A stretch of 64,000 nt of DNA, taken from Stutzerimonas stutzeri. Its GTDB lineage: Bacteria > Pseudomonadota > Gammaproteobacteria > Pseudomonadales > Pseudomonadaceae. The notes below the pieces were generated by a model, which made no database searches, was not told the DNA's origin, and worked only from the letters and a program-made list of their open reading frames with translations. The DNA lies in assembly GCF_024451105.1 (NCBI RefSeq), contig NZ_JANGEY010000004.1, forward strand, positions 1 through 64,000, given 5' to 3'. Below, piece by piece: positions 6,942-60,061 of this stretch (the first letter of the stretch is position 1; each line of letters starts with the position of its first letter). A program made the translations under genes and the position numbers.

Positions 6942-7330
6942 GGGTCTGCCTCTGCGCCGGTTCGAGCAAGGCGACCTGCCGTCCCGCAGGGGAAACGGAA
7001 ACAGGGCGCCGGCCCGCGATTCGCCGCCCTGGCGGAATCGGCGGGCCATGCCGGCATTGTTACCCCGGGCGCGGCGGCGCCAAGCGCGGAATAGTCGGCG
7101 TCCGCATGGACTATTCCGCGCTTTGCATGGGGAGATGGCGGAACCCGGCGCCGGACGCGGCGGCGCCGGAAAACTTGAACCCGAACAAGCGCGATTTCGC
7201 ATTCCTCTTCGTCCGATGAAATGTCCGTGCTCTGGTTCACACTACAAGGAGCATTCGCTCTTGCGCATCGGACGGCTCGCCGACGCTTGCGCCGGCGACA
7301 TCGGACAGCCAGACAAGAACCGCTGCAGAT
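6942..7330. other. Divergent control region fliA / winged-helix gene
   Basis: 389 bases with no supported gene. The main visible element is the 42-base inverted repeat at 7082-7123. Weak open frames here are not supported by a ribosome binding site or by family similarity. Confidence 0.6.
7082..7123. promoter_or_regulatory. Perfect inverted repeat, candidate FlhD4C2 box for fliA
   Basis: AAGCGCGGAATAGTC (7082-7096), 12-base spacer, GACTATTCCGCGCTT (7109-7123): a perfect 15-bp inverted repeat. The arm resembles the enteric FlhD4C2 half-site AAYGS-N2/3-AAATARCG and the 10-12 base spacer is as in that consensus. It lies upstream of fliA, a classical FlhDC target. A very stable hairpin could also form, but no T tract follows. 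Confidence 0.65.
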
Positions 7331-7711
7331 ATGACCGAGATTCACCAGCTAGGCATTCCCGTGCATGTGGGCAACTACCGGATCGATCTGCTGCATCGAC
7401 GCATCCGCAGCCTGGACGACCGCGAGGTGGTCCTCACCCCCGGCGAATTCTCCCTGCTGATGGGCCTGCTGGAGCGCCGCGGCGAGGTGGTGGCACGGCT
7501 CAGCCTGCTGGCCGCCCTGCATCCCGGCCAGGTCGGCGATCTCGGCGACCAGCGCACCGTCGACACCCTGGTGGTGCGCCTGCGCCGCAAGCTGGAGTGC
7601 GACCCCGGCCAGCCGCGGCTGATCCAGACCGTCTACGGCAAGGGCTATCGGCTGGCCGCGGAAAGCGAGCTGAACGCCACCGGCAACGGCCAGCCGTCGC
7701 TGGCCGGCTGA
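7331..7711 (+). CDS. Orphan OmpR/PhoB-type winged-helix DNA-binding protein
   Basis: 126 residues. Almost the whole protein is a Trans_reg_C winged-helix domain: LTPGEFSLLMGLLERRGEVV (about 36-55), the recognition helix DTLVVRLRRKLE (about 78-89), and the wing GQPRLIQTVYGKGYRL (about 93-108). There is no receiver domain or membrane segment, so it is not an ordinary response regulator. It sits alone on the plus strand between fliA and flhE and converges with flhE (5 bases between stop codons). A role in flagellar regulation is plausible from position only. Confidence 0.8.
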   Translation: MTEIHQLGIPVHVGNYRIDLLHRRIRSLDDREVVLTPGEFSLLMGLLERRGEVVARLSLLAALHPGQVGDLGDQRTVDTLVVRLRRKLECDPGQPRLIQTVYGKGYRLAAESELNATGNGQPSLAG

Positions 7712-7716
7712 GCGAC

Positions 7717-8118
7717 TCAGCGGTACTCCGCCAGCACCTGTAGCCCGCCCACTCGCAGCGGACGAGCGCCCTCCTCCAGACGGAAACACAACTGCAGCGG
7801 CGCGCCGGCATCCAGCCCGGCCAGCGCCCGGCTGCGCCCGCGCGCGCCCGGCAGCGCCGTGCAGCGCTGCGGGTGGCACAGCCAGGCCCGCAGCGGCGCG
7901 CCGGCCGGCGCGGCGAACTGCCAGGCGATGCCGGCCAACTGCCGGCCGCGGGCCAGCGCCGGCGGCCGCAGCGCCGCCGAGCAGCTGCGCAGGTCGCTGC
8001 GCGCCACCTGGAATGCCGGCGCGCGACCCTCCCAGCTGCCCGGCGCGGCCGGCTGCTCCGCGGCGTGGGCCGAGAGGCTCCAGAACAGTAGCGCCGACAG
8101 TGCGCAGCGCCTCAGCAT
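7717..8118 (-). CDS. flhE: Flagellar protein FlhE
   Basis: 133 residues with a clear signal peptide (basic MLRRC, hydrophobic core, cleavage after SAHA near residue 19). The mature part contains Cys pairs and a WEGRAP motif; size and position at the end of the flhBA operon fit FlhE, a periplasmic protein that in enteric bacteria affects flagellar export gating and proton leakage. It overlaps the preceding gene by 7 bases (ATGCTGA), so translation is coupled. FlhE is normally confined to peritrichous, FlhDC-type systems. Confidence 0.75.
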   Translation of the reverse strand: MLRRCALSALLFWSLSAHAAEQPAAPGSWEGRAPAFQVARSDLRSCSAALRPPALARGRQLAGIAWQFAAPAGAPLRAWLCHPQRCTALPGARGRSRALAGLDAGAPLQLCFRLEEGARPLRVGGLQVLAEYR

Positions 8119-8615
8119 GCCGCCCCCGACCGTTCGGGCAACAGCAGCAGCTCGGTATCCAGCCAGGCCGCCGCAGCCTCGCGCAGGTTGCCGAGCAGGC
8201 CGGCAGGCCCGGGGATGCCGGGGTGCAACGCCAGCAGGCGGCGCGGCCCGCCCGCCTCATGCAGCTGGCGCAGGATGCGCCAGGCGCGACGGAAGCCGTC
8301 GCCGTCGTCCTCCACCCACAGCGCCCAGCGCGACTGCTGCTCGGCCAGCACCGCCAGGTGCGGGCTGTCGGCCTCCAGCGCCACCAGCTTCCAGCGCGCC
8401 GGATCGCCCACCCAACGGTGGCCGCCGGCCTGCCAGCGCGCCAGACAGGCGCGCGCCGGCGTGCTGCGCAGCCCCGGCAGACCGACCACCATGAGGGTCA
8501 GCGGCTCGACGGCGGGCGGCACGGCGTCCCTGCCCGGTTCGGCCGCGACCGTCGCCGGCTGGCCGAACTGCTCGGCCCAGCGGCGCAGACCGGCGGCCTG
8601 ATCGCCCGCGCCCAT
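8112..8615 (-). CDS. FlhG/FleN-position protein without a P-loop (unknown function)
   Basis: 167 residues, starting in a TGATG overlap with the flhF stop and ending inside the flhE start. The centre has LTLMVVGLPGLRSTPARACLARW, a MinD-like beta-strand start but no Walker A (deviant or normal) lysine motif, and the C-terminal half (FRRAWRILRQLHEAGG, LLGNLREAAAAWL) vaguely resembles the end of MinD/FlhG ATPases. Genes in this position next to flhF usually encode the ATPase FlhG (FleN) of about 270 or more residues. This may be a shortened, non-catalytic relative or an unrelated protein. Confidence 0.6.
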   Translation of the reverse strand: MGAGDQAAGLRRWAEQFGQPATVAAEPGRDAVPPAVEPLTLMVVGLPGLRSTPARACLARWQAGGHRWVGDPARWKLVALEADSPHLAVLAEQQSRWALWVEDDGDGFRRAWRILRQLHEAGGPRRLLALHPGIPGPAGLLGNLREAAAAWLDTELLLLPERSGAAC

Positions 8616-10999
8616 CAGTGCGCTCCGGCGTTGCCGGCCACCTGGCGCAGACTGTCGCGGGCGGCGAGCAGGTGCAGCAGGGCATCCAGCTGCTGCTGGG
8701 CGCTGCGCTGGCGGCGGCCGCCGGCCAGGCTGAGCAGCTGGGCGCGCACGTCCATCGCCCAGTCGGCCTCGGCCTGCTCGAGATGGCTGGCGGTGGCCGC
8801 CAGCGCGGCGGCGACGAACAGCCGCAGCTCGGCCTGCAACGGGCCGAACAGGCCGTCCAGGCTCAGCCAGGCGCGGCCGGTCAGGCTCGGCAGGTCGTCG
8901 CTCTGCAACTGGCGCAGCAACAGCCCCTGCTGCTGCAGGAGACCCTCCTCGCCGGGGCAGGCGCTGCTGGCCAGCCAGAAGCGCTGCAGCGGCGGGCGGG
9001 CGCCGTCGGGATCGTGCAGCTGGCCGAACCAGGCCTGCAGCGGCCAGGCGCCGCTGTGCTGGCCGCGCTCGCGGCCGGCGTCGAGGCCGACGTCGAGCAG
9101 CGCCAGATCGAGCTGCAGCGCATGGCCGCGGTAGCGACAGGCCAGGCTGGCCTGCGGCATGGCGATCTCGGCCAGGGTCTGCAGCGCATAGCGCTCGCCG
9201 AGGTAGTCGACCCGGGCGTTGCCCTTGGCCGCCGCCGCCCAGGCGCTGCCCTGCGCCGCCAGGGCGCGCAGGGTGGCGGCGTCGGGCGGCGCGGCGAGCA
9301 GATGGTCGGCCTGCGGCCACTGCTGCGCCGCCCACTCCAGGCGCGCCGCGGCGCCGGCCGGCAGCTGGTGGGCCAGCCACGGCCGGGCCTGCAGGCGGCC
9401 GTCGGCGGCGAAACTCAGCAGCGGCATCTGCCAGGTCTGCCCGGGCAGCGCGCCGGGGCGCCCCCAGAGCAGCAGGCCGGCGGCGGCGGCGGGACTGGCG
9501 GCGAGCAACTGGGCAAGACGCTCGCCCTGCAGGCTGCGCGGCAGCGCGGCGAGCTGCCAGGCGGCCTCGAGCAGGGCGAAGCCGTCCACCTCGCGGCGCA
9601 GGCCGTCGAGCGCCGCGGCCATCGCCCGGCCGTGGCCGAGCAGGCCGCGCGCCAGGGCCTCCAGGCGCTGGCCGGGCGCCGCCGGCGCGCCGGCCGGAGC
9701 GACGAAGGCCGAGCCCTGGCTGGCCGCCAGCGCCTGGCGGACCAGCGCCGGGGCATCGGCCGGATGCAGGTCCTCGGGCACCTGCTGGCCGCTGGACAGG
9801 TAGTGCAGGCGCAGGTTGTGGCGGATCAGGATGTCCAGCACCGGCCCCAGGCGCGCGGCCTCGTCGCTCTTGGTGACGACGCAGTCGTCGAGGCGCGAGC
9901 CGGCGGCGCGGGCGGCGCGCTGGTAGGTGGCGACCACCTCCTCGAGGGTGTCGCCGTGGCTGGCGGCGTTGAGCAGCAGCAGCAGCCGCACCGCATGGCC
10001 GGCGCCGCCGAGCTGGGCGATCTGACCGATCAGCCGCTGATCGCGCTGGCTCATGCCGATGGTGTCGATGATCACCAGGCGCTTGTCGGCCAGCTGTGCC
10101 AGCACGCCGTCCAGCGCCGCCTCGGCGGGCAGCGCCTGCACCTCGACGCCGAGCAGCCGGCCGTAGATGCGCAGCTGCTCGTGGGCGCCGATCCGGTAGC
10201 TGTCGGTGCTGAGCAGGGCGACCTGGCCGCTGCCGTGGCGCATCACGTAGCGCGCCGCCAGCTTGGCGGTGGTGGTGGTCTTGCCGACCCCGGTGGGACC
10301 GACCAGCGCCAGCACGCCGCCGGCGTCGAGCAGGTCGCCCTCGTCGGCCGGCACCGGCAGGCGCGCGGCCAGCTGGCGTTCCAGCCAGGCGCGCGCAGCC
10401 GGATCGTCGGCGCCGGCGCCCTGCAGCTCGGCGGGCAGCGCGGCGAGGATCTCGTCGCACAGCCGGACGCCGAAGCCGGCCAGCAGCATCAGCTGGCGCA
10501 GCCGTCCGGCGCCGCTGTCGGGACTGGCGGCCGGACCGATCTGCCGGTTGAGCAGCTCGCGCATGCCCTGCATCTCGCCGAGCAGCAGCTCGCCGAGGGC
10601 GGCGAAATCCGCCGCGGCGGACGGCGGCGCGGCGGCGCGGTCGATCGACGGCGGCGCACCTTCCTCCTGGGTACGCTGGTAGGCGGCGGCGTGGCGCGCG
10701 GCGAAGCCGGCGGGCACGGTCGCCGGCCGGGCGCCCGGCTGGGACGCGGCAGCCGGGCCCTGCTGCAGCTCGGCGGCCGCGACCGCCGGACGGACGGGCG
10801 GCGTCGGCCGCGGGGCGGCAGCGGGCTGCGGCGGCGCCTCGGGCACCAGGCGCTGGTGCTCGTCGTCGGCCATGGCGAGGATCTCCACGCCCTCGGCGGT
10901 GGTGCGGTTGGAGAGGATCAGGGCATCCTCGCCGAGCGCCGCGCGCACCTGGCGCATCGCCTCCCGGCTGTTGGCTCCGACAAAACGTCTGACACTCAT
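8615..10999 (-). CDS. flhF: Flagellar biosynthesis GTPase FlhF with a long C-terminal extension
   Basis: 794 residues against about 400-500 in typical FlhF. The N-terminal B domain (MSVRRFVGANSREAMRQVRAALG) is followed by a Pro/Ala-rich linker and an SRP-type NG GTPase: P-loop GPTGVGKTTTT (about 232-242), DSYRIGAHEQL, IDTIGMSQRD (G3) and TKSDE (G4). The GTPase ends near residue 425; about 365 further residues, rich in Leu, Ala, Gln and Trp, have no motif I know. FlhF recruits early basal-body parts and sets flagellar position in many bacteria. Start and stop both overlap neighbours as TGATG, so flhA, flhF and the next gene are translationally coupled. Confidence 0.92.
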   Translation of the reverse strand: MSVRRFVGANSREAMRQVRAALGEDALILSNRTTAEGVEILAMADDEHQRLVPEAPPQPAAAPRPTPPVRPAVAAAELQQGPAAASQPGARPATVPAGFAARHAAAYQRTQEEGAPPSIDRAAAPPSAAADFAALGELLLGEMQGMRELLNRQIGPAASPDSGAGRLRQLMLLAGFGVRLCDEILAALPAELQGAGADDPAARAWLERQLAARLPVPADEGDLLDAGGVLALVGPTGVGKTTTTAKLAARYVMRHGSGQVALLSTDSYRIGAHEQLRIYGRLLGVEVQALPAEAALDGVLAQLADKRLVIIDTIGMSQRDQRLIGQIAQLGGAGHAVRLLLLLNAASHGDTLEEVVATYQRAARAAGSRLDDCVVTKSDEAARLGPVLDILIRHNLRLHYLSSGQQVPEDLHPADAPALVRQALAASQGSAFVAPAGAPAAPGQRLEALARGLLGHGRAMAAALDGLRREVDGFALLEAAWQLAALPRSLQGERLAQLLAASPAAAAGLLLWGRPGALPGQTWQMPLLSFAADGRLQARPWLAHQLPAGAAARLEWAAQQWPQADHLLAAPPDAATLRALAAQGSAWAAAAKGNARVDYLGERYALQTLAEIAMPQASLACRYRGHALQLDLALLDVGLDAGRERGQHSGAWPLQAWFGQLHDPDGARPPLQRFWLASSACPGEEGLLQQQGLLLRQLQSDDLPSLTGRAWLSLDGLFGPLQAELRLFVAAALAATASHLEQAEADWAMDVRAQLLSLAGGRRQRSAQQQLDALLHLLAARDSLRQVAGNAGAH

Positions 11000-13083
11000 C
11001 AGTTGTTGCCTCCGATCAGGCTGGTCACGCGCAGCATGCGGTCATCGGGAATCTCGGCCAGCGACATCACCACCAGGTGGCGCAGACGCCGGCGCAGGAA
11101 GCGCGCCAGCAGGGCGCGCAGGCGGTGCTGGACGACCAGCACCGGAGCGTCGCCGTTGGCTTCCTGACGGTTGAGGGCGGTTTCGGCCAGTTGCATCAGG
11201 TTGCCGGCCAGGCCCGGCTCCAGCGCGCCGCCGTTGCTCATGGCCTGGGCCAGCACCTGCTCGAGGCCGGCGTCGAGGCCGATCACCCGCAGCTCGCCCT
11301 CGCTGCCGAACCACTGCTGGGTGATCGCCCGGCCGAGCGCCACGCGCACCACGCCGACCAGCTCCTGGGCGTCGCTCTGCGCGCCGGCGTGTTCGGCCAG
11401 GGTGTCGAGGATGGTGCGCAGGTCGCGGATCGACACCTCCTCCTCCAGCAGGCTCTGCAGGATGCGTTGCAGGGTGGTGAGGCCGACCGCCTTGGGCACC
11501 ACCTCCTCGACCAGCGTCTTGTTGTCCTCGCCGAGCTTGTCGAGCAACTGCTGCACTTCCTGGCGGCCGAGCAGATCGCTGGCGTGGCGGTGCAGCAGGT
11601 GGTTGAGATGGGTGGCCGCCACGGTGCTGGCGTCCACCACCGTGTAGCCGTAGACCTGCGCCAGCTCGCGCTGCGCCAGGTCGATCCACACCGCCGGCAG
11701 GCCGAACGCCGGGTCGCTGGTGGCCTGCCCTTCCAGCCGACCGCTCACCTGGCCGGGGTCGATGGCCAGCCACTTGCCCGGCTGCAGCTCGGCGCGGCCG
11801 ATCTCCACGCCCTTGAGGCGGATCACGTAGGTGTTCGGTCCCAGTTCCAGGTTGTCGCGGATGTGCACCACCGGCGGCAGGAAGCCGACCTCCTGGGCGA
11901 ACTTCTTGCGCACGCCCTTGATCCGGCCGAGCAGCTCGCCCTGCTGGCGGTGGTCGACCAGCGGGATCAGCCGGTGGCCGACCTCCAGACCGAGGGTGTC
12001 GACCAACTGCACGTCGTCCCAGCTGGCTTCGGGCGCTTCGGCCGGCGGCGGCGGCTCGGGATTCAGCGCCTTCTCGACCTGCTGTCGCTCGTCGCGGCGC
12101 ATCAGCCACCAGGCCAGCGCGGACAGCAGCGCGGTGAACAGCAGGAACACCAGGTTGGGCATGCCCGGCACCAGGCCGAGCAGGCCCATCACCCCGGCGG
12201 CCAGCCAGAGCACCTTGGGATTGGCGAACAGCTGGCCGAGCATCTGCTGGCCGACGTCCTGGTCGGTGTTGACCCGCGAGACGGTGACGCCGGCGGCGGT
12301 GGAGATCACCAGCGCGGGGATCTGCGCCACCAGGCCGTCGCCGATGGTCAGCAGCACGTAGGTCTGCGCCGCGGCGCCGAAGGCCATGTCGTGCTGCAGC
12401 ATGCCGATCAGCAGGCCGCCGACGATGTTCACCACCATGATCACCAGGCCGGCCACCGCGTCGCCGCGGACGAACTTGCTGGCGCCGTCCATCGAGCCGT
12501 AGAAGTCGGCCTCCTGGGACACCTCGCGGCGCCGCTGGCGCGCCTCGTCCTCGCCGATCAGCCCGGCGTTGAGGTCGGCGTCGATGGCCATCTGCTTGCC
12601 GGGCATCGAATCGAGGGTGAAGCGCGCGCCGACCTCGGCGATGCGCCCGGCGCCCTTGGTGATGACCATGAAGTTGATGATCACCAGGATCAGGAACACC
12701 GCCAGACCCACGGCGAAGTTGCCGCCGACCAGGAACTGGCCGAATGCCTCGATCACCTTGCCGGCGGCGTCGCCGCCCTGGTGACCCTCCATCAGCACCA
12801 CCCGGGTCGAGGCGACGTTCAGCGACAGGCGCAGCAGGGTGGTGAACAGCAGGATCGCCGGGAAGGCGGCGAAGTCCAGCGGCCGCTTGGTGAACATGCT
12901 GACCAGCAGCACCATGATCGACAGGGCGATGTTGAAGGTGAAGAACAGGTCGAGGGCGAACGGCGGCAGCGGCAGGATCATCATCGACAGGATGAGGAGG
13001 ATCAGCAGCGGGCCGGCGAACAGCTTCATGTCGCCGTTGCCGCCCAGGCCGCTGCGCCCCAGCCAGGCGCTCAGTGCATTCAT
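10999..13083 (-). CDS. flhA: Flagellar type III export apparatus protein FlhA
   Basis: 694 residues, normal length. The first 330 or so residues hold about eight transmembrane helices, with the FHIPEP signature in DSMPGKQMAIDADLNAG; the remainder is the cytoplasmic domain that docks chaperone-substrate complexes. It sits between flhB (4-base overlap) and flhF (TGATG overlap) in an flhB-flhA-flhF operon. It forms the export ring and couples proton flow to secretion. Confidence 0.97.
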   Translation of the reverse strand: MNALSAWLGRSGLGGNGDMKLFAGPLLILLILSMMILPLPPFALDLFFTFNIALSIMVLLVSMFTKRPLDFAAFPAILLFTTLLRLSLNVASTRVVLMEGHQGGDAAGKVIEAFGQFLVGGNFAVGLAVFLILVIINFMVITKGAGRIAEVGARFTLDSMPGKQMAIDADLNAGLIGEDEARQRRREVSQEADFYGSMDGASKFVRGDAVAGLVIMVVNIVGGLLIGMLQHDMAFGAAAQTYVLLTIGDGLVAQIPALVISTAAGVTVSRVNTDQDVGQQMLGQLFANPKVLWLAAGVMGLLGLVPGMPNLVFLLFTALLSALAWWLMRRDERQQVEKALNPEPPPPAEAPEASWDDVQLVDTLGLEVGHRLIPLVDHRQQGELLGRIKGVRKKFAQEVGFLPPVVHIRDNLELGPNTYVIRLKGVEIGRAELQPGKWLAIDPGQVSGRLEGQATSDPAFGLPAVWIDLAQRELAQVYGYTVVDASTVAATHLNHLLHRHASDLLGRQEVQQLLDKLGEDNKTLVEEVVPKAVGLTTLQRILQSLLEEEVSIRDLRTILDTLAEHAGAQSDAQELVGVVRVALGRAITQQWFGSEGELRVIGLDAGLEQVLAQAMSNGGALEPGLAGNLMQLAETALNRQEANGDAPVLVVQHRLRALLARFLRRRLRHLVVMSLAEIPDDRMLRVTSLIGGNN

Positions 13084-14243
13084 CGGTTTTCCTCGGGCGC
13101 CCTGCGCCGCTTGGGTTCATCGAGTCCGGCCGGCACCGGCAGGTCGCGCGGGGTCGGCGGTCGCTCGCCGCCCTCCTCGCGCACGCGGCGGAGCCGGTAG
13201 GCCCAGGCCAGCACCTCGGCCACCGCGGTGTAGAGTTCGGCCGGGATCTCCTTGTCGAGATCCACGTGGTGATACAACGCGCGCGCCAGCGGCGGCGCCT
13301 CGAGCAGCGGCACGCCGTGCTCGGCGCCCAGCTCGCGGATCCGCGCGGCGACCAGCTCGGCGCCCTTGGCCACCACCTTCGGCGCGCCCATGCTGCCTTC
13401 CTCGTAGCTCAGCGCCACCGCGTAGTGGGTCGGGTTGGTGACGATCACGTCGGCGCCCGGCACCTTGCTCATCATCCGCCGCCGCGCCACCGCCTGCTGC
13501 TGGGCGCGGATGCGGCCCTTGACATGCGGATCGCCCTCCGCCTCCTTGTGCTCCTTGCGCAAGTCTTCCTTGCTCATGCGCAGCTTCCTGGCATGGCTCC
13601 ACAACTGGTAGGGCACGTCGATGCCGACCACCACGATCAGGGTCAGCACGATCAGCGCGCAGGCCAGTGCCGCCAGGCCGAGGGCGCTGGCCAGCGCCTG
13701 GTGCAGCGGCTGGGTCATCAGCGCCATCATCTCGCCGACGTGGCTGGAGATGAACTGCACCGCCACCGTGCCGACCAGCAGCGACTTGGCGATCGCCTTG
13801 CCCAGCTCCGCCAGCGCGTGGCTGGAGAACAGCCGCTTGAGCCCCTTGAGCGGATTGAGCCGGGAGAACTGCGGGACCAGCGACTTGGCCGACAGCAGCC
13901 AGCCGCCGAGCAGCATGGGACCGATCAGGGCGATCAGCAGCAACAGCACGAACAGCGGCAGCAGGGCCAGCAGGCTGCGCTGGGCGAGGCTCCAGAAGTG
14001 CGTCAGCATCACCGCCGGATCGAAGGCCACGGCGCGCTCGAACAGGAACGACTGCTCGACCACCAGGCCGAGCTGGGCGTACAGCACGCCGCCCATCGCC
14101 CACAGCCCGCCGACCCCGCCGACCAGCAGCAGGAAGGTGCTCAACTCGCGGGAACGGGCGATCTGCCCCTCTTCGCGCGCCTTCTCCAGGCGCCGGGGTG
14201 TCGCCGCTTCTGTCTTGTCGTCCTGATCGCTCTCGTCAGCCAT
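13080..14243 (-). CDS. flhB: Flagellar export switch protein FlhB
   Basis: 387 residues: a short charged N-terminus, four transmembrane helices and a C-terminal cytoplasmic domain with the autocleavage motif NPTH (about residue 268) in VIVTNPTHYAVAL. Cleavage between N and P switches export from rod/hook to filament substrates in concert with FliK. It is the first gene of the flhBAF operon; a FlhDC-like box lies about 230-270 bases upstream. Confidence 0.97.
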   Translation of the reverse strand: MADESDQDDKTEAATPRRLEKAREEGQIARSRELSTFLLLVGGVGGLWAMGGVLYAQLGLVVEQSFLFERAVAFDPAVMLTHFWSLAQRSLLALLPLFVLLLLIALIGPMLLGGWLLSAKSLVPQFSRLNPLKGLKRLFSSHALAELGKAIAKSLLVGTVAVQFISSHVGEMMALMTQPLHQALASALGLAALACALIVLTLIVVVGIDVPYQLWSHARKLRMSKEDLRKEHKEAEGDPHVKGRIRAQQQAVARRRMMSKVPGADVIVTNPTHYAVALSYEEGSMGAPKVVAKGAELVAARIRELGAEHGVPLLEAPPLARALYHHVDLDKEIPAELYTAVAEVLAWAYRLRRVREEGGERPPTPRDLPVPAGLDEPKRRRAPEENR

Positions 14244-14471
14244 GGCCTTGTCCGCGCCTGCCGGCCCGTGCGGTCGGTTGGTCAGCTCAAGTTCGGATGA
14301 CCATGGTTTCGAGACCGGGCGCCGCGACGAGTCATAGCAGGGCTATGGCGAGGAGCGGCAACGCAGTATCGGGGCCATGGGCGCCGAAATTGACGGATCG
14401 AACCGACCGGACAGGCCGCAGGGCGACTCAATACGGGCAAAACGGCATTGTGCCGCCAGGCGTACGCGGGC

Positions 14472-14515
14472 AATCGGCGAAACAGCGCGGCGATTAGCCT
14501 GCTTATCGGGCCGCG
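14472..14515. promoter_or_regulatory. Candidate FlhD4C2 box of flhB
   Basis: Left arm AATCGGCGAAACAGCG (14472-14487) matches 11 of 13 defined positions of the enteric half-site AAYGS-N3-AAATARCG. After a 12-base spacer the right arm TGCTTATCGGGCCGCG (14500-14515) matches its inverse more loosely. Confidence 0.5.
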
Positions 14516-33411: not shown

Positions 33412-33438
33412 CTATCGGCAGGCGCGGCGGGAACTTGA
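33412..33438 (-). promoter_or_regulatory. FliA (sigma-28) promoter of motAB-cheAW
   Basis: Minus strand TCAA (33438-33435), 15 bases, GCCGATAG (33419-33412). The start of transcription would fall about 10 bases downstream, near the rejected TTG start of motA, which supports the GTG start at 33366. Confidence 0.8.
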
Positions 33439-33515: not shown

Positions 33516-34127
33516 TCAGCCCTGGCCGACCGCCAGGGAGACGTCGGCGAATCCGGAGTCGCCCGCAGCGCCGGCGCTGTCGCCGGCCGCCTCCAGGCCC
33601 GCCTCGCGCTGCTTGCGGGTCTTGCCGGCCCGCGACGGCGGCTGGCAGATGCCGCACACGTAGCCGCGCCGCGGCGCATGGGCGTGGGCGACGAAACGGC
33701 CGCTGCAGCTGGTGCAGCGCACCAGCTCGAGCATCTCGCTCTCGAAGAAGCGCACCAGGGTCCAGGCACGGGTCAGACCGAGCACCACCTCCTCGCCGTC
33801 GACCACCCCGACCTGCTCCAGGTAGAGCCGGTAAGCCTTGACGAAGGCCTCCATGCGCTCGCAACCGTGCGCGTTAACCAGCCGGTCGTAGATGTTGTAG
33901 AACAGCGAGGAATGGATGTTCGGCAACCAGGTGACGAACCAGTCGGTGGAGAACGGCAGCATCCCCTTCGGCGGCGATACGCCGCGCACTTCCTTGTACA
34001 GACGAATGAGCCGGCCACGACTGAGATCGGTTTCCGTCTCGAGCACCTGCAGCCGCGCACCCAGCTCGATCAGGTCGATCGCCAGCTGCACCTGCTGCAT
34101 CTCGTTGAGCAAACTCTTTTCGGTCAT
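33516..34127 (-). CDS. flhC: Flagellar master regulator subunit FlhC
   Basis: 203 residues from the ATG at 34127. Characteristic zinc ligands CTSC and CGIC surround the [13 protein letters not shown] segment, as in E. coli FlhC; N-terminal part [29 protein letters not shown] is also family-typical. It forms FlhD4C2, which binds inverted-repeat boxes upstream of middle flagellar operons; five candidate boxes occur in this window. It begins 11 bases after flhD. Among pseudomonads FlhDC is characteristic of Azotobacter, where it replaces FleQ as flagellar master. Confidence 0.95.
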
Positions 34128-34138: not shown

Positions 34139-34462
34139 TCACCCCGCCACCGCACCCGCAGGCGCCGCCGAGGCCATCAGCAGCGCCGCATGGATCTGCC
34201 CCAGTCCGGACTCGCGCTGTCCCTGGGTGATGCGTGCCAGCTGCCCGGCATCGTCGAGCACCATCCGGCACAGCATCTGCTTGGTGCGCGACAGCTGCAT
34301 GAGCTGCTTGACCGACAGGCCAGCAATCAGCTCGGCGGTTTCCGGGCTGAGCTTGAGGCGGAACAGCGCCGTCACCGGATCCTCGCGCAGCAGTTTCTGG
34401 GCGAGCAGGAGGTAGGCAAGATTGAGCTCCTGGATGTCATCCAGCAGGCTATCAACGGTCAT
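34139..34462 (-). CDS. flhD: Flagellar master regulator subunit FlhD
   Basis: 107 residues, helical. [31 protein letters not shown] aligns with the start of E. coli FlhD, and the Cys in QMLCRMVL corresponds to the one forming the dimer disulfide. It is the first gene of flhDC. The upstream region (34463-34824) is AT-rich compared with its surroundings and carries an inverted repeat at 34658-34689. In Azotobacter vinelandii flhDC is under negative control by AlgU and CydR; no clear site for either could be called here. Confidence 0.94.
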
Positions 34463-38544: not shown

Positions 38545-38874
38545 TCAGACCTGCATGTTCATCACGTCCTTGTAGGCGGTCAGCAGGCGATTGCGCACCT
38601 GCACGCCCATCTGGAAGGCGACGCTGGCCTTCTGCATGTCGACCATCACGTCGGCGAGCTCGACGCCCGGCGCCCCGGCCTGCAGGGCGAGCGCCTTGCC
38701 GTTGGCGGTCTGCTGCAGACTGTTGATGCGCTGGATCGAGGCGCGCAGCTCGGCGGCGAAGCCGCCCTGGCCGACGAGCTGGGCCGCCTGCTGGGTGCCG
38801 CCGGACTGGCCGGCGGCCTGGCTGGCCAGGGTCTGCAACTGCTGCAGGGCGGACTGGATGGCGGGTGCACTCAT
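38545..38874 (-). CDS. fliE: MS ring-rod junction protein FliE
   Basis: 109 residues from the ATG at 38874 (MSAPAIQSALQQLQ). The C-terminal part VMVDMQKASVAFQMGVQVRNRLLTAYKDVMNMQV is the conserved FliE core. It joins the MS ring to the rod. It is divergent from fliF across a 248-base region with a candidate FlhDC box, the enteric fliE/fliF arrangement. No strong ribosome binding site is visible. Confidence 0.94.
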   Translation of the reverse strand: MSAPAIQSALQQLQTLASQAAGQSGGTQQAAQLVGQGGFAAELRASIQRINSLQQTANGKALALQAGAPGVELADVMVDMQKASVAFQMGVQVRNRLLTAYKDVMNMQV

Positions 38875-38947
38875 CGATGGATTCCGAAGGGCAATGGATG
38901 GCGATGCTGGCAAGCCTAGCAACCCGGGCTCACCGACCAAGCCCCCA

Positions 38948-38989
38948 AATGACGGCAAAAGCCTGGGCTTTTCAGGCCTTTAGGGCGGG
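38948..38989. promoter_or_regulatory. Candidate FlhD4C2 box between fliE and fliF
   Basis: Left arm AATGACGGCAAAAGCC (38948-38963), 10-base spacer, right arm AGGCCTTTAGGGCGGG (38974-38989). The left arm fits the enteric half-site well, the right loosely. The centre (AAAAGCC-TG-GGCTTTT, 38957-38972) could also fold as a short hairpin. Confidence 0.5.
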
Positions 38990-39122
38990 GCGTCGCCACC
39001 ATAATGGCAGCCATCACAGGTCCGCCCGGCGCCAACCGGCCAGGCGGGCCATCGCGACAGATTCTGCCAGCGGAAACCGCAATGCCCCTCGTAAAGACCC
39101 TGACCAGCCCCCGGAGCTGCGC

Positions 39123-40871
39123 ATGAGCAACGCCAGCCCGGGGACCGTCGGCAGCGCGGCCAGCAGCGCACAGGGCCAGCCCTTCGAGCGCCTGCTGGCC
39201 CAGCTGCGCGGCAATCCGCTGCTCCCGCTGCTGATCGCCGGCGCGGCGGCCATCGCCGTGATCGCCGCCCTGCTGCTGTGGGCGCAGAGTCCCGACTACC
39301 GGGTGCTGTACTCCAACTTCAGCGAGGCGGACGGCGGGCGCATCATCGCCGAACTCGACAAGCGCGGCGTACCCTACCGTCTCAGCGAGGGCGGCAGCGC
39401 CCTGCTGGTGCCTGCCGAACGCATGCACAGCCTGCGCCTGCAGCTGGCCGAGCAGGGCCTGCCGCAGGCCGGCAACGTGGGCTTCGAGCTGATGGACAAG
39501 CAGGCCTTCGGGGTCAGCCAGTTCGCCGAACACATCAACTTCCAGCGCGGCCTCGAGGGCGAGCTGGCCCGCTCCATCGAGTCGCTCGGCCCGGTGGCCA
39601 AGGCCCGCGTGCACCTGGCGATGGCCAAGCAGTCGATCTTCGTGCGCGACCGCCAGCCGGCGAGCGCCTCGGTGGTGCTCACCCTGCACCCGGGCCGCAG
39701 CCTCGGCGAAGGCCAGGTCGACGCCATCGTCCACATGGTCAGCTCCAGCGTACCGCAGCTGGCTGCCGAGGCGGTCACCGTGGTCGACCAGAACGGCCGC
39801 CTGCTGTCGATGCCCAGCGGCAGCGCGCGCGACCTCGACGGCAGCCAGCTGAGCTACATCGACGAGGTGGAGAGCGCCTACCAGCGGCGCATCGAACGCA
39901 TCCTCGCCCCCATCCTCGGCGCCGACAACGTGCGCGCCCAGGTCGCCGCGGAGATCGACTTCGCCAGCCGCGAGCAGACCGCCGAACGCTTCGCACCCAA
40001 CCAGAACATGGCCGATGCGGCGATCCGCAGCCAGCAGTCCAGCGAGAGCTACAGCGGCGACCGCGACCTGGCCCGCGGCGTGCCCGGCGCGCTGTCCAAC
40101 ACGCCGCCGGCGCCACCCGCACCGCCGCAGACGCCGCCCGACGAACCCGAGGGCGCCGCGCAGACCGGCGAAGGCGTCGCTGGCAGCGGCGGCTCGCTGC
40201 GCCGCGACAACCTGATCAACTACGAGGTCGACCGCAGCGTCGAGCACGTGCAGCAGCGTCGCGGCAGCGTCAAGCGACTGACCGCCGCGGTGGTGGTCAA
40301 CTACCGCAGCGGCCTCGACGAAGACGGCAACCCGACCCGCGAGCCGCTGAGCGACGAGGAACTCGAGCGCATCAATCGCCTGGTCAGGCAGGCCATGGGC
40401 TTTTCCGAGAGCCGCGGCGACGCCCTCGAGGTGGTCAACAGCCCGTTCAGCGAGAGCGCGCCGAGCGCCGCCCAGGAAGTCTGGTGGCAGACGCCGGAGT
40501 TCTTCGTGATGGCCACCTCGATCGCCCGCTACCTGCTGGTCGCCCTCGCCGCCCTGCTGCTCTGGTTGCTCCTGCTGCGCCCGCTGGTCCGCCGCTACGC
40601 GGCGCCGGTGCCGGCACCGGCGAGCGCCGCCGACGGCGACGCAGCCGTCCAGGCGGCCGGCGCCGACGGCGAGACGCCAGCCGGCGCGAGCCAGGCCGGC
40701 GTCGCCGTCGACGAGGCGGCCGCCGCACTGGCCAACGGCGAGCTGCAGCGCCGCATGCGCCGCCGCTCTGCCGTCTACGAACACAACCTGGCCACGCTGC
40801 GCGAGATGGCCCAGGAAGACCCACGTCTGATCGCCATGATCGTCAGCGGCTGGATGAAGAAGAATGACTGA
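39123..40871 (+). CDS. fliF: MS ring protein FliF
   Basis: 582 residues from the ATG at 39123 (CGGAG eight bases upstream). Transmembrane helices near 33-56 and 468-488 flank a large periplasmic region with the ring-building motif domains (ADGGRIIAELDKRGVPYRL, RVHLAMAKQSIFVR) and a Pro-rich insertion; the C-terminal tail EDPRLIAMIVSGWMKK binds FliG. First gene of fliFGHIJK, overlapping fliG by 8 bases. Confidence 0.97.
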   Translation: MSNASPGTVGSAASSAQGQPFERLLAQLRGNPLLPLLIAGAAAIAVIAALLLWAQSPDYRVLYSNFSEADGGRIIAELDKRGVPYRLSEGGSALLVPAERMHSLRLQLAEQGLPQAGNVGFELMDKQAFGVSQFAEHINFQRGLEGELARSIESLGPVAKARVHLAMAKQSIFVRDRQPASASVVLTLHPGRSLGEGQVDAIVHMVSSSVPQLAAEAVTVVDQNGRLLSMPSGSARDLDGSQLSYIDEVESAYQRRIERILAPILGADNVRAQVAAEIDFASREQTAERFAPNQNMADAAIRSQQSSESYSGDRDLARGVPGALSNTPPAPPAPPQTPPDEPEGAAQTGEGVAGSGGSLRRDNLINYEVDRSVEHVQQRRGSVKRLTAAVVVNYRSGLDEDGNPTREPLSDEELERINRLVRQAMGFSESRGDALEVVNSPFSESAPSAAQEVWWQTPEFFVMATSIARYLLVALAALLLWLLLLRPLVRRYAAPVPAPASAADGDAAVQAAGADGETPAGASQAGVAVDEAAAALANGELQRRMRRRSAVYEHNLATLREMAQEDPRLIAMIVSGWMKKND

Positions 40872-45691: not shown

Positions 45692-45704
45692 GCGCCTGGC
45701 GGCA

Positions 45705-45746
45705 AAGCGGCAAGATAGGCTCGATAGGCTGGCTTTTTCGAGCCAT
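45705..45746. promoter_or_regulatory. Candidate FlhD4C2 box of fliL
   Basis: Left arm AAGCGGCAAGATAGGC (45705-45720), 10-base spacer, right arm GGCTTTTTCGAGCCAT (45731-45746). Both arms fit the enteric FlhD4C2 half-site in opposite orientation. It stands 64 bases before the fliL ATG. Confidence 0.55.
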
Positions 45747-45809
45747 CGGGCCGCGACCGCCGTCGCCATACTTGCCCCCCTGTAATCCGTCCATCGAGCA
45801 CGTACCCCC

Positions 45810-46301
45810 ATGGCCAACCCCGAATCCGCCGGCAAGTCGACTCCCTGGCTGGTGATCGTCCTGCTGCTCCTGCTCTGCTCGGCCGGCAGCGCGGCCGCCG
45901 TGTACTTCCTGTTCGGCGGCGCCAAGCTCGGCGCTCTCGGCGGCGAGGCCAGCGCGGCAGCCGCTGCCCCGGCCAAGGCGCCGACCCCGCGCTTCGTGCC
46001 GATCAGCCCGTTCACCGTCAACCTGCAGGGCGAACCCGCCGGACAGCGTCTGCTGTACATCGGCCTGTCGCTGAGGGTCGGCGACGCGGCCACCGAGGCG
46101 CTGCTCAAGGAGCACATGCCCGAGGTGCGCAGCCGTCTGCTGATGCTGATGGCCAGCCAGAAGGCCAGCGAGCTGATCACCCCGGCCGGCAAGGAGGCGC
46201 TGACCGCGCAGATCCTCGCCCTGTTCAACGCCCCCCTGACCAGCCCGCAACCGCCCCTGGCGATCGACGGCGTGCTGTTCTCCGACTTCATCGTCCAGTA
46301 G
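45810..46301 (+). CDS. fliL: Flagellar basal-body protein FliL
   Basis: 163 residues: short cytoplasmic N-terminus, one transmembrane helix (about 13-35) and a periplasmic stomatin-like domain (FVPISPFTVNLQ, YIGLSLRVGD, PEVRSRLLMLMASQKASEL, IDGVLFSDFIVQ). FliL encircles and supports the stator. It opens the fliLMNOPQR operon, with a FlhDC-like box upstream. Confidence 0.95.
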   Translation: MANPESAGKSTPWLVIVLLLLLCSAGSAAAVYFLFGGAKLGALGGEASAAAAAPAKAPTPRFVPISPFTVNLQGEPAGQRLLYIGLSLRVGDAATEALLKEHMPEVRSRLLMLMASQKASELITPAGKEALTAQILALFNAPLTSPQPPLAIDGVLFSDFIVQ

Positions 46302-52710: not shown

Positions 52711-52737
52711 TTATCGGCCGCGCCGGGATAATCTTGA
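52711..52737 (-). promoter_or_regulatory. FliA (sigma-28) promoter of flgKL
   Basis: Minus strand TCAA (52737-52734), 15 bases, GCCGATAA (52718-52711): the -10 element is a perfect match. It lies between flgJ and flgK, as in enteric bacteria. Confidence 0.85.
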
Positions 52738-52754
52738 TGGCCGTTCGGCCGCGA

Positions 52755-54898: not shown

Positions 54899-54920
54899 GG
54901 CGGGTCCCGGCGCTCGCCGC

Positions 54921-55595: not shown

Positions 55596-55609
55596 GGCCG
55601 GCCCCCCGG

Positions 55610-56392: not shown

Positions 56393-56427
56393 CTCGTCGT
56401 CTCTCCGAATGGGGTGGCGGTACGCGC

Positions 56428-57180: not shown

Positions 57181-57192
57181 GGTTCAGGGCCC

Positions 57193-58380
57193 TCAGCGCA
57201 GGTTCACGGCCTGCTGCAGCACTTCGTCCTGCAGCTTGATGGTCTGCGCGTTGGCCTGGAAGTTGCGTTGGGCGATGATCAGGTTGACCAGCTCCCTGGT
57301 CAGGTCGACGTTGGAGGTCTCGATCACTCCGGCCTCGATGTCGCCGAACAGGCCGGTGCCGGCCTCGCCGATCAGCGCCTGGCCGGAGTCGGCCGTCTCC
57401 ACCCAGCCGCCGCCCACCGGGGTCAGGCCCTCGGGGTTGCGGAAGTTGGCCATGGCGATGGTGCCCAGCACCTGGGTGCGCTCGTTGGAGTAGTTGCCGA
57501 TGATCTGGCCCTTCTTGTCCACCGAGATGCCCACCAGGCTGCCGGAGGTGAAACCGTTCTGGTTGAGGCTGCCCAGCTCGAATTCGTTGGCGAACTGGGT
57601 GCTGCCGGCCACGTTGAGCTTGAACTGCAGATCGTTGGCGCCGTTGCTCAAGGCGAAGTTGATCTCGCCGGGCTCGTAATCGGTGAGCAGCAGGCCATTG
57701 CTGTCGAAGGACAGCTGGATCTCGTCGGAGGAGAACTCCTGGCCCTCGGGGGTGGCGCGCGCCACCTTGACGTCCCAGCTGTTGATGTCGGTCTTGATGA
57801 AGTACAGGGTCAGCGTCTGCGGCGTACCCTGGGAGTCGAACACGGTGGCGCCGTTGGCGTAGGAGTAGGTGCTGGCCTTGAGCGGATCGAAGGCGCCCGC
57901 ATCCAGGCTCGGCAGGGTGGCGTCCAGATTCAGGGTGGCCTTGAGCTCGGTGGTCGCCCGGGCCGGCAGACCCGCCGCGGAGATGTTCAGCTGCTGCAGC
58001 TGGCCGCCGTTGCCCGCGGCGCCCAGGTAGCCGGTCAGGCGGCCGCCCTGGGCGTTTTCCAGGAAGCCGTCCGGCGTCATGGTCAGCTGGCCGTTGCGCG
58101 CATAGACGATCTGCTCGCCCATGTCGAAACGCAGGAAGCCGCCGCCGCTGATGGCCAGGTCGAGGTTGCGGCCGGTGGCCTCCAGGTTGCCGTCCTTGAA
58201 GTTCTGCTGCACGCCAGCGATGCTGACGCCCAGACCGACCTTGGCCCCGGCATACACGTCGGCGAACTGCATGCTGGCGCTCTTGTAGCCGACGGTCTGC
58301 GAGTTGGCGATGTTGTTGCCCATCACATCGAGGTTCTTGGCGGCCGCGTTGAGACCGCTGAGTGCCTGTGAAAAGCCCAT
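57193..58380 (-). CDS. flgE: Flagellar hook protein FlgE
   Basis: 395 residues from the ATG at 58380 ([33 protein letters not shown] pattern). The longer frame upstream is not hook-like. The C-terminus [29 protein letters not shown] is the conserved D0 helix. It builds the universal joint on top of the FlgD scaffold. Confidence 0.97.
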
Positions 58381-58444
58381 GCTGACTTGACTCCCCTGCT
58401 GCGGCGGGCTACCGCCCTGCCGCGCGATTGCGATGAAAAGGTGG

Positions 58445-59116
58445 TTAAAGGATCTGGCGGATGTCCTGCAGACCGACGCGCCCCAGGGTGGCGCCGAGGT
58501 CGAGCAGCGGCCCGTTGCTGCCGGTGCTGATCGCGCCGACCCGGGCATAGGTCAGCACGGTGGAGGACTGGACGCGGCCGTCGCTGCTGGCCTCCACCCG
58601 CACCCGGTAGGCGCCGTCCGGCGCGGTGCTGCCGTCGTCGAGGGTGCCGTCCCAGACGAAGGACTCCACCCCGGCCTGCATGGCGCCGAGATCGAACTGG
58701 CGGACCGCCTGGCCCGCGCCGTCGAGAATGGAGACCTTGACCTGGTCGGCGCCCCGGTCCAGTTCGATGCCGAACGGGGTGGCCTCGCCGCTGCCGACCA
58801 ACACGCGATCGCCGGGCACCAGCACGCTGCGACCGATCAGCGCCGAGGCCTGCAGGGTCTGTCCGGCGTCGATCTGCCCGGTGATGGCCTGCAGGGTCTT
58901 GTTCAGCTCCTCCACGCCGCTGAGCGTGTTGATCTGCGCCAGCTGCGAGGTCATCTCGGCGTTTTCCATCGGATTGAGCGGATCCTGGTTCTTCAGCTGG
59001 GTGACCAGGAGGGTCATGAAGTTGGTGCGCAACTCGTCGGCCTGGCTGCTCTTGCCGCCGCTCGCCGCCGCAGTGCCGTTGATCGCCGCCAGCGTGGAGG
59101 TGTCGATGCCGGTCAT
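58445..59116 (-). CDS. flgD: Hook cap protein FlgD
   Basis: 223 residues. N-terminal FMTLLVTQLKNQDPLNPMENAEMTSQLAQINTLSGVE is the FlgD signature; the C-terminal half has the Ig-like/Tudor domains (DGAGQAVRQFDLGAMQAG, FVWDGTLDDGSTAPDGAYRVRV). It caps the growing hook and is later replaced by FlgK. Confidence 0.96.
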   Translation of the reverse strand: MTGIDTSTLAAINGTAAASGGKSSQADELRTNFMTLLVTQLKNQDPLNPMENAEMTSQLAQINTLSGVEELNKTLQAITGQIDAGQTLQASALIGRSVLVPGDRVLVGSGEATPFGIELDRGADQVKVSILDGAGQAVRQFDLGAMQAGVESFVWDGTLDDGSTAPDGAYRVRVEASSDGRVQSSTVLTYARVGAISTGSNGPLLDLGATLGRVGLQDIRQIL

Positions 59117-59127
59117 GGTCGCCGTCC

Positions 59128-59535
59128 TCAGCCTTCGCCCAGGGCGAGGGTCTTGAGCATCAGCTGCTTGCTGGTGTTCATCACCTCGACGTTGGCCTGG
59201 TAGGAGCGCGAGGCGGAGATCATGTTGACCATCTCGCTGACCGGCTCGACGTTGGGCAGGGTCACGTAGCCGCGCTCGTCGGCCAGCGGGTGGCCCGGAC
59301 GGTACTCCTGGCGCATCGGCGCCGGATCCTCGATCACCTGCGCCACCTGCACGCCGCCGATGCCCCGGCTGTCGGCACCGCGCGCCTCGAAGACGACCTG
59401 CTTGGCACGGTAGGGCTGGCCGTCGGGACCGGTCACGCTGTCGGCGTTGGCCAGGTTGCTGGCGGTGACGTTCATGCGCTGCGACTGCGCGCTCAGCGCG
59501 GAACTGGAGATGTTGAAGATGTTGAACATCGACAT
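59128..59535 (-). CDS. flgC: Proximal rod protein FlgC
   Basis: 135 residues from the ATG at 59535, matching the family start ([20 protein letters not shown]). A GTG three codons upstream (59544) overlaps the flgB stop as GTGA and is a possible alternative. C-terminal [30 protein letters not shown] is typical of rod proteins. Confidence 0.96.
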
Positions 59536-59540
59536 GGCGG

Positions 59541-59951
59541 TCACTCGGGCTGCAGGGCGGTCTTGAGGCCCTGGATACGGCTGTTCATCAGCGTCAGGCT
59601 GGCCTGGTAGCGCACTGCGTTGTCGGCGAACTCGCCGCGTTCGAGGTCCATGTCCACGGTATTGCCATCCATGCTCGGCTGCGCGGGAATGCGGTAGAGC
59701 AGCTCGCGCTCGGCGGCGAGGCTGTCCAGGCGTGCCTCCAGATGGCGCGGATCGGTGGTGCGCAGACGCCCGCCGGCCAGCTGTGCGCCCTGGGCGGCCT
59801 TACCCAGCTCGGCGGCGAAGTCGAAGTCGCGCGCCTTGAAGTTGGGCGTATCGGCGTTGGCGATATTGTTGGCCAGCACCTGCTGGCGTTCGGCGCGCAA
59901 GCCCAGCGCCAGTTGATGCAGGCGCAGCGCGCCGTCGAGCTTGTCGATCAT
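59541..59951 (-). CDS. flgB: Proximal rod protein FlgB
   Basis: 136 residues from the ATG at 59951 ([39 protein letters not shown] pattern). First gene of the rod/hook operon flgBCDEFGHIJ, divergent from flgA across 164 bases with a candidate FlhDC box. Confidence 0.96.
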
Positions 59952-60018
59952 GCTGGCGACCTCCGCGCCCAGGGCAAGATTGTTCAGGGCACAGGATAGG
60001 ACCGCCCCCGGCGCTGCA

Positions 60019-60061
60019 AAGGACTGAACAGGCGGCCATTTACCGGCCAATTTCCGCCTTG
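60019..60061. promoter_or_regulatory. Candidate FlhD4C2 box between flgB and flgA
   Basis: Left arm AAGGACTGAACAGGCG (60019-60034), 11-base spacer, right arm GCCAATTTCCGCCTTG (60046-60061). Fit to the enteric half-site is moderate (about 8 of 13 in the left arm), but position matches the FlhDC-controlled flgA/flgB promoters of E. coli. Confidence 0.4.

Follow-up and report, generated by a model that had tools for sequence, protein, structure and literature searches.

Predicted FlhD4C2 boxes before five class-2 flagellar loci in a Stutzerimonas stutzeri cluster that encodes FlhDC

Introduction

FlhDC is a known flagellar master regulator in Azotobacter vinelandii, where an flhC mutant is without flagella and a fleQ mutant is still flagellated, according to the available portion of the report (PMC2885672). 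The second flagellum of Pseudomonas fluorescens F113 is FlhDC-controlled and its cluster is described, in an excerpt of the source, as homologous to that of Azotobacter (PMC5031763). Sites for RpoD, FliA and AlgU and a CydR box were sought in these two studies, and no FlhDC box is reported in the sections available (PMC2885672, PMC5031763). FlhDC boxes in Azotobacter are not the subject of any paper in the literature that we searched, outside which most subscription journals lie. The E. coli FlhD4C2 box is printed as AAYGSSNNAAATAGCG-N10-12-CGCTATTTNNSSCRTT in the accessible part of PMC9962212. An extract of PMC4183435 counts fliD among the FlhDC-bound operons of E. coli and adds that in vivo binding there is not predicted by motif match alone.

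We analysed a 64-kb stretch of Stutzerimonas stutzeri DNA (the window), which encodes both FlhD and FlhC (PF05280, PF05247). FlhC is 53% identical to its E. coli counterpart, and C138, C141, C158 and C161, which we take to be the zinc cysteines, are invariant in 8 of 8 aligned sequences.

Results

Five boxes and their register

Five imperfect palindromes of 44 bp precede fliA, flhB, fliE/fliF, fliL and flgB/flgA (Table 1), and we consider it highly likely that these serve class-2 flagellar promoters as FlhD4C2 operators. Their half-sites follow a consensus of about AAAGS-N3-GAATAGYC, with A10, A11 and G14 among the conserved positions, and the spacer is 12 nt at four boxes. At fliL the box as given is extended by one base to the left, leaving a 17-nt left half and an 11-nt spacer within the same 44 bp. 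All five sites named in a preliminary description are present, but its fliE/fliF coordinates (38948-38989) are about 9 bp out of register. In the register used here, the conserved second half of the fliE/fliF box is CAAGCCCCCAAATGAC and the spacer is 12 nt; this register was picked after the 12-nt rule had been seen at the other sites, and an initial one with a spacer of 2 was discarded for it. Perfect 15-bp arms at fliA, separated by a 12-nt spacer, were recovered by an inverted-repeat scan as had been claimed. The view that this arm is shifted from the enteric pattern fails, because lengthening it by one base to AAAGC-GCG-GAATAGTC brings it into the 16-nt frame of AAYGSSNNAAATAGCG.

Table 1. 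Features of the window, with coordinates, strand and remarks
Feature	Position	Strand	Remark
fliA, flagellar sigma factor	6246..6941	-	Sigma70_r2/r3/r4
fliA -10 hexamer AACAAT	7056..7061	-	19 nt from box edge
Predicted FlhDC box of fliA, AAAGCGCGGAATAGTC-N12-GACTATTCCGCGCTTG	7081..7124	-	matrix, relatives-only model
flhB, then flhA and flhF	13080..14243	-	
flhB -10 hexamer CACAAT	14447..14452	-	19 nt from box edge
Predicted FlhDC box of flhB	14472..14515	-	weakest of five; one half degenerate in this genome
sigma-28-like site before motA	33412..33438	-	2 mismatches; without FlhDC box
flhC	33516..34127	-	four cysteines common with E. coli FlhC
flhD	34139..34462	-	
fliE	38545..38874	-	
fliE -10 hexamer TAGGCT	38913..38918	-	19 nt from box edge; hexamer also present at E. 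coli fliE
Predicted FlhDC box common to divergent fliE and fliF	38938..38981	-	matrix, relatives-only model
fliF -10 hexamer CATAAT	39000..39005	+	18 nt from opposite box edge
fliF	39123..40871	+	
Predicted FlhDC box of fliL	45704..45747	+	matrix, relatives-only model
fliL -10 hexamer CATACT	45767..45772	+	19 nt from box edge; unchanged across 10/10 genomes
fliL	45810..46301	+	
sigma-28-like site before flgK	52711..52737	-	1 mismatch; class-3 type; without FlhDC box
flgB	59541..59951	-	
flgB -10 hexamer TATCCT	59993..59998	-	19 nt from box edge
Predicted FlhDC box common to divergent flgB and flgA	60018..60061	-	matrix, relatives-only model
flgA -10 hexamer TAGAAT	60080..60085	+	18 nt from opposite box edge
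flgA	60116..60829	+	

Chance occurrence in the window and the genome

Inverted-repeat scoring finds a near-perfect repeat at fliA alone among the five, and fliA is the sole locus of the window with perfect arms of at least 13 bp and a spacer of 8-14. Seventeen such repeats occur in 564 kb of the same genome, five with arms of at least 15 bp, the fliA repeat and overlapping registers being counted in. The flhB, fliE/fliF, fliL and flgB/flgA sites are ordinary as plain inverted repeats and distinct only as half-site matches. As plain inverted-repeat scoring fails to separate these four from background, half-site matrices were used instead. Searching for the simple pattern GGCNNGAAANRGCC, 2 mismatches being allowed, was uninformative and dropped (2,934 matches genome-wide versus 3,257 for the reversed control).

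The resemblance of the arms to the enteric half-site, already remarked upon, is seen at every site: the best agreement with the published enteric consensus within 2 positions is 18-20 of 28 (fliA 19, flhB 20, fliE/fliF 20, fliL 18, flgB/flgA 19). At the exact box registers, fliE/fliF, fliL and flgB/flgA have 17 of 28 each (flgB/flgA 18 with an 11-nt spacer). Background windows (276 bp, n = 2,031) reach at least 18 in 104 cases (5.1%), at least 19 in 20 (1.0%) and at least 20 in 3, indicating that single sites are modest against this consensus and that all five jointly are not chance. Training on related sequences ties the scores of the matrix and the model to shared descent; the test using the enteric consensus only is free of this dependence but weaker.

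Each operon was tested with a matrix built from the remaining four and scored on 564 kb of this 3.69-Mb genome. No equally good position was found among 564,000 for fliA, fliE or flgB, while there were 2 for fliL and 42 for flhB. A model built from relatives only gave nine matches at E<=10 in the whole genome, eight of them at the five boxes; the remaining one (C7:11105-11134, E 0.22) is a terminator-like hairpin between convergent ORFs. In a matrix scan of 500 kb sampled from the same genome, one other place, L080:4100 (17.1), outscores flhB (16.3), and it is absent from the relatives-only matches at E<=10. The matrix scan of the window picks the five class-2 places, the next best place scoring 11.4, and finds no box at a score of at least 9.5 for fliD. 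The statement that the sites mark exactly the operons activated by FlhDC in E. coli does not hold in full, fliD being the exception.

Spacing between box and -10 hexamer

The distance from box edge to -10 hexamer is 18-19 nt at all seven hexamers, which matches E. coli. Since the edge facing the class-2 gene stands at this distance before the -10, the expected -35 location coincides with the outermost bases of the box. Over 69 promoter sides the -10 fit peaks at offset 18/19 with a mean of 4.0 of 6, the exceptions being flgA of two relatives (G056 and G044), both at 20. As a built-in control, the 29 sides of fliA, flhB and fliL boxes not facing any class-2 gene gave no peak (fit 1.4). Six E. 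coli sides, taken from matrix-picked boxes without fliD, also peak at 18/19 (fit 4.3).

The matrix ranks the E. coli K-12 fliA and flgA/B boxes first in their stretches; the former is identical to the box in Table 1 of PMC9962212, and the latter is one base longer at one end than printed there, whereas the picks at fliE and fliL differ from the printed boxes (comparisons with the available part of that paper). The fliL match (12.4) is barely above one inside yedK (12.1). No match reaching score 8 lies upstream of E. coli flhB, and the two best in its stretch (15.9, 14.0) are inside genes.

Conservation and co-occurrence with FlhC

The same boxes precede the same operons in up to 11 FlhC-carrying genomes of the family. 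Mean identity over 10 genomes (9 for flhB) is 0.85 in the box core and 0.90 in the -10 hexamer, versus 0.42 in N3, 0.48 in the gap to the -10 and 0.44 downstream; arms are therefore kept while flanks drift, the outcome expected of the alignment check that had been proposed. Identity in the box spacer is 0.59, and 0.71 at flgB, indicating that the spacer is not free to vary, and total length is 44 in all aligned boxes. The unalignable flhB region of G353 was left out, as was G025 for fliE, fliL and flgB (fragmented assembly); G025, a near copy of G050, was also left out of the conservation and -10-offset counts.

Among 119 family genomes, box-model matches at E<=0.01 occur in 11, nine with FlhC and two without. 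Boxes thus track FlhC (9 of 10 FlhC genomes versus 2 of 109 FlhC-less ones), the two FlhC-less genomes being about what this cut-off lets through. G061 has no model match at E<=0.01, yet its boxes score 15.9-30.1 by matrix.

The nearest FlhC outside the family is Halomonas-type, with up to 80% identity, and in Halomonas-type clusters a similar box stands upstream of flgB/flgA at 4 of 4 loci and upstream of fliE/fliF at some. When 276 bp upstream of genes in 80 named FlhC loci were scanned at a threshold score of at least 15, boxes were found at flgB/flgA in 4/4, fliE/fliF in 9/24, flhB in 3/9 and fliA in 3/9, so that below half of the fliE, flhB and fliA regions reach 15; without three Pseudomonas the counts are 4/4, 6/21, 2/7 and 1/7. 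Control genes at the same threshold gave 1/80 (flhD), 0/74 (motA), 0/62 (cheW), 0/25 (cheY) and 0/4 (flgM). Most Halomonadaceae fliE/fliF boxes stay under a matrix score of 15, implying that the local consensus differs there. The tree drawn with the named FlhC loci has 87 rows, and L159, L161, L165, L166 and L167 of the 80 named loci were left out of it. A Halomonas-type lineage is the probable donor of the regulator, the cluster and the boxes, all acquired together. The idea of a transplanted regulatory code is plausible if it is taken to cover the entire cluster and its regulator, with this lineage rather than the enterics as the source.

Discussion

Arm conservation, the presence of FlhC and FlhD in the window, and the E. 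coli-like box and -10 distance all support reading the five repeats as FlhDC boxes, as the preliminary description had proposed. The sequence, conservation, position and spacing of the boxes and the outcome of the genome-wide scan are direct observations. FlhDC made from flhDC (33.5-34.5 kb) would bind the 44-bp boxes and, once bound, would recruit sigma-70 polymerase at the class-2 promoters. As the two boxes between divergent operons would serve both sides, five boxes would drive seven promoters (fliA, flhB, fliE, fliF, fliL, flgB and flgA). FliA would next activate class-3 operons, among them flgK and motA, both preceded by a sigma-28-like site and neither by a box. A scan for such sites with at most 2 mismatches gives 9 distinct places, some within genes.

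The perfect 15-bp arms at fliA might instead form an RNA hairpin, an intrinsic terminator or leader structure, the other four sites being chance resemblances, and the sole non-box match genome-wide (C7:11105-11134, between convergent ORFs) resembles such a hairpin. We regard this as highly improbable: no T-run follows the repeat on either strand, with the flanks read on both sides, and in several relatives the arms are imperfectly complementary while the same base positions are kept and the -10 distance is fixed. Chance resemblance is further opposed by the leave-one-out counts, with 0, 0, 0 and 2 equal positions at four of the five sites. That the boxes are operators of another regulator such as FleQ, a family match to which exists in this genome (C12:213096-213446), is less credible still. 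The sigma-54 -24/-12 consensus is TGGCACG-N4-TTGCA, and 64 kb searched on both strands hold no match to it with at most one mismatch. The resemblance of the sites to the consensus known for FlhDC in E. coli also speaks against FleQ, and they follow FlhC, not the family. FleQ does drive the flagella of P. aeruginosa, but the A. vinelandii fleQ mutant keeps its flagella, as the available text of PMC2885672 describes.

The boxes could also be relics of an acquired cluster whose class-2 operons are now driven otherwise, for example by a sigma-28 promoter at flhB. The cluster does look acquired, present use is not provable from conservation alone, and a sigma-28-like site with 2 mismatches (14471-14497) overlaps the flhB box. 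However, core identity (0.85) exceeds that of adjacent bases of equal age (0.42-0.59), which indicates that selection is acting, and in the aligned relatives the sigma-28-like site at flhB has not retained its CTAA part. With flagella of A. vinelandii also requiring flhC (PMC2885672, in the part available), we find relics very hard to credit.

The sites very probably operate as FlhDC boxes, a sound but largely expected extension of the known FlhDC system. They supply the cis-half of the known Azotobacter-group regulator: a local consensus, seven predicted promoters and a spacing rule shared with E. coli. With so few boxes genome-wide, the regulon is open to complete testing. A bolder proposal, which we hold only tentatively and slightly doubt, is that FlhDC serves the Azotobacter group as a closed switch with a single purpose, with five boxes genome-wide in one cluster and seven promoters only; that regulator, boxes and promoter geometry (44-bp length, -10 at 18-19 nt, use in both directions) were transferred as a unit and displaced FleQ; and that this geometry is general for gamma-proteobacterial FlhDC. 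If true, the geometry rule would make FlhDC regulons readable from sequence. The boxes also open to testing how a lineage swaps FleQ for another flagellar master regulator, by acquiring a regulator with pre-wired target promoters.

The A. vinelandii and F113 systems, as far as described in the excerpted sources, have the same regulator and belong to the same family as the cluster in the window. The boxes of the window and of E. coli have in common the 16-nt half-site frame, a palindrome of 42-44 bp and the class-2 flagellar operons that they precede; boxes between fliE/fliF and flgB/flgA are shared as well, as is the TAGGCT of fliE. By contrast, position 9 is mostly G in the window boxes and A in E. 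coli, and position 3 is mostly A where E. coli has C or T.

Inverted repeats at five flagellar promoters

The preliminary description had proposed that inverted repeats before fliA, flhB, fliE/fliF, fliL and flgB/flgA are FlhD4C2 boxes. Family searches of the window, which covers 64 kb of contig C20 in a genome of 3.69 Mb (25 contigs), confirmed the genes at all five places. The fliA repeat has perfect 15-bp arms around 12 nt of spacer, and no other window locus combined perfect arms of at least 13 with a spacer of 8-14; the fliE/F, fliL, flgB/A and flhB sites were unremarkable when scored as plain inverted repeats. The sites were then compared with the enteric consensus AAYGSSNNAAATAGCG-N10-12 (28 scored positions, from the accessible part of PMC9962212), a test that draws on no sequence from relatives. 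The best matches, at most 2 positions off, were 19 (fliA), 20 (flhB), 20 (fliE/F), 18 (fliL) and 19 (flgB/A); exact box starts gave 19, 20, 17, 17 and 18, respectively, with 17 for flgB/A when its spacer was set to 12 nt. Background scores of at least 18 occurred at 118 of 563,945 single positions; among 2,031 background windows, each 276 bp long, 104 reached that score, 20 scored at least 19 and 3 at least 20. A single site therefore receives modest support from the enteric consensus, and the five boxes jointly, in the correct promoters, are well beyond chance.

Conservation and promoter geometry

FlhC was present in 11 of 398 genomes of the Pseudomonadaceae: seven belong to the genus of the window (own genome counted), three to genus g17 and one to g14. 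G009, of the same genus, had no FlhC or FlhB match, and its FliA match was only a distant sigma factor (28%). When upstream regions from the flagellar clusters of FlhC-carrying relatives were aligned, the arms formed conserved blocks in all five alignments, as expected of arms kept while flanks drift. Mean pairwise identity, averaged over 10 genomes (9 for flhB), was high in the core arms (0.85) and the -10 hexamer (0.90) and lower in the spacer (0.59), the gap to the -10 (0.48), the free N3 (0.42) and the sequence beyond the hexamer (0.44). The spacer was more constrained than the gap, flgB/A being the extreme. Spacer identities at flgB/A (TAAAT; 0.71) and fliL (GATAG; 0.62) exceed the expectation for a free spacer.

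The alignments also changed one register. The fliE/F site at first had a 2-nt spacer, which became 12 nt once one half was moved; the spacer is then 12 nt at fliA, flhB, fliE/F and flgB/A. The fliL box combines an 11-nt spacer with a 17-nt left half, for a total of 44 bp. Fit to TATAAT was maximal at an offset of 18/19 (4.0 of 6; 69 promoter sides, 10 genomes), except at flgA of two relatives, G056 and G044 (offset 20). No signal appeared at 18/19 in 29 control sides, those of the fliA, flhB and fliL boxes facing no class-2 gene (1.4). Thus the proposed boxes stood as regards sites, conserved arms and promoter geometry, and the fliE/F register had to be corrected.

Features of the window and predicted -10 elements (distances from the gene-facing box edge)
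Feature	Position	Strand	Description
FlhC	33516-34127	minus	family search; within flagellar cluster
FlhD	34139-34462	minus	family search; within flagellar cluster
flgB/A box	60018-60061		
fliL box	45704-45747		
fliA -10			AACAAT, 19 nt
flhB -10			CACAAT, 19 nt
fliE -10			TAGGCT, 19 nt
fliL -10			CATACT, 19 nt
flgB -10			TATCCT, 19 nt
fliF -10			CATAAT, 18 nt
flgA -10			TAGAAT, 18 nt
sigma-28-like site	14471-14497	minus	2 mismatches; overlaps flhB box
hairpin stretch	14244-14440	minus	197 nt, predicted to fold as a single long hairpin (-93.4 kcal/mol, z -4.1)
Trans_reg_C ORF	7331-7711	plus	lone winged-helix ORF, divergent to fliA
repeat and TPR proteins	12-3320	plus	ALTTAQ-repeat protein, then TPR/glycosyltransferase-41/methyltransferase protein; adjoins flagellar cluster
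tRNA gene	63742-63825	minus	immediately past flgM and chemoreceptor gene

Specificity of the predicted boxes within the genome

Each site was scored by a half-site matrix trained on the remaining four operons, against 564,000 own-genome positions. No position equalled fliA (21.9 bits), fliE (26.7) or flgB (27.3), and two equalled fliL (13.8). As flhB (6.5 bits) left 42 equally good positions, its predicted box is supported mainly by conservation; the second half is degenerate here and nearer consensus in G061, G044, G017 and G056. With the full matrix, in 500 kb sampled outside the window, one place (L080:4100, 17.1) scored above flhB (16.3). A sequence-only profile, made from 40 boxes found in relatives with the own genome excluded, was run on the whole genome, with 150 of 872 first-look candidates scored. 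Among these, nine matches had E<=10. The five boxes, hit on one strand or on both, account for eight; the remaining match (C7:11105-11134, E 0.22) was rejected as a hairpin between convergent ORFs.

Several neighbouring features were also recorded. The CTAA part of the sigma-28-like site at flhB is not conserved in aligned relatives. The flhB box lies about 160 nt farther from its gene than in five relatives of the genus, with G061 intermediate. The hairpin stretch, a 136-nt piece of which occurs once in the genome, is possibly a relic of an inserted hairpin element. Among compared clusters, the Trans_reg_C ORF has a close match only in G069, partial and about 1.2 kb from the fliA box of that genome. 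The tRNA gene is a possible integration point.

The regulator and origin of the cluster

Compared with E. coli FlhC, the FlhC of the window shows 53% identity and four invariant cysteines; it also matches two FlhC chains of solved structure, 8j56_C and 2avu_E. Profile matches at E<=0.01 were found in 11 of 119 family genomes (taken as G000-G118 from handle order, hence without G353), comprising 9 of 10 FlhC carriers and 2 of 109 others, the latter close to the chance yield of the cut-off. Because most carriers were also in the training set, the evidence lies in how rarely FlhC-less genomes match. Upstream of flgK, motA, flaG and one chemoreceptor gene, putative sigma-28-like sites (2 mismatches or fewer) were found, and the matrix scan of the window placed no box there, a pattern by which the cluster would recover an enteric-like two-step hierarchy.

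Among 59 family genomes, FlhA of six FlhC carriers was 82-100% identical to that of the window, and 45 other genomes with a match reached at most 59%. FlhA of G353, the g14 carrier outside this set, reached 72%, and FlhA of Idiomarinaceae and a Halochromatium bin 72-78%. An FlhC tree, with weak deep forks and a long E. coli branch, grouped all 14 Pseudomonadaceae rows (support 100/97) beside Halomonadaceae, Alcanivoracaceae and others, remote from E. coli. The simplest reading is that the whole cluster may have been acquired together with its boxes. A FleQ-family gene remains elsewhere in the genome.

Comparison with other FlhC systems

Upstream regions in 80 named FlhC loci, none of which includes those of fliL or flgK, were scanned at a cut-off of 15. 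Scores of at least 15 were found at flgB/flgA in 4/4, fliE/fliF in 9/24 (the two genes share one box), flhB in 3/9, fliA in 3/9 and fliD in 3/34, with controls at 1/80 (flhD), 0/74 (motA), 0/62 (cheW), 0/25 (cheY) and 0/4 (flgM), and 25 positions elsewhere in 1.53 Mb. Removing three Pseudomonas loci (L113, L118, L142) left 4/4, 6/21, 2/7 and 1/7 for flgB/flgA, fliE/fliF, flhB and fliA.

For E. coli K-12, a pseudomonad-only matrix was applied to 42 kb of flagellar sequence. Two boxes each topped their stretch: that of fliA (18.0), which agrees exactly with Table 1 of PMC9962212, and that of flgA/B (17.3), from which the printed version lacks a single base at one end. In the first stretch fliE/F (16.0), fliD (13.0) and fliL (12.4) followed, the last barely exceeding a match within yedK (12.1); for fliE and fliL, the table gives boxes unlike those picked by the matrix. 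Upstream of E. coli flhB nothing reached 8, and the two top matches of that stretch (15.9, 14.0) lie inside genes. At the same offset as in the pseudomonads, six sides of matrix-picked E. coli boxes (fliA, fliE, fliF, fliL, flgA, flgB) gave a TATAAT fit of 4.3, and the E. coli fliE -10 is identical to that of the window.

According to the available part of PMC2885672, an A. vinelandii flhC mutant has no flagella, A. vinelandii likewise retains a FleQ gene, and León and Espín looked for AlgU, RpoD and FliA sites; within partial literature coverage, we found none on FlhDC boxes in Azotobacter. The predicted boxes appear to be a sound and useful result, mostly expected: regulator, boxes, E. coli-like geometry and A. 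vinelandii genetics all agree with putative control by FlhDC.
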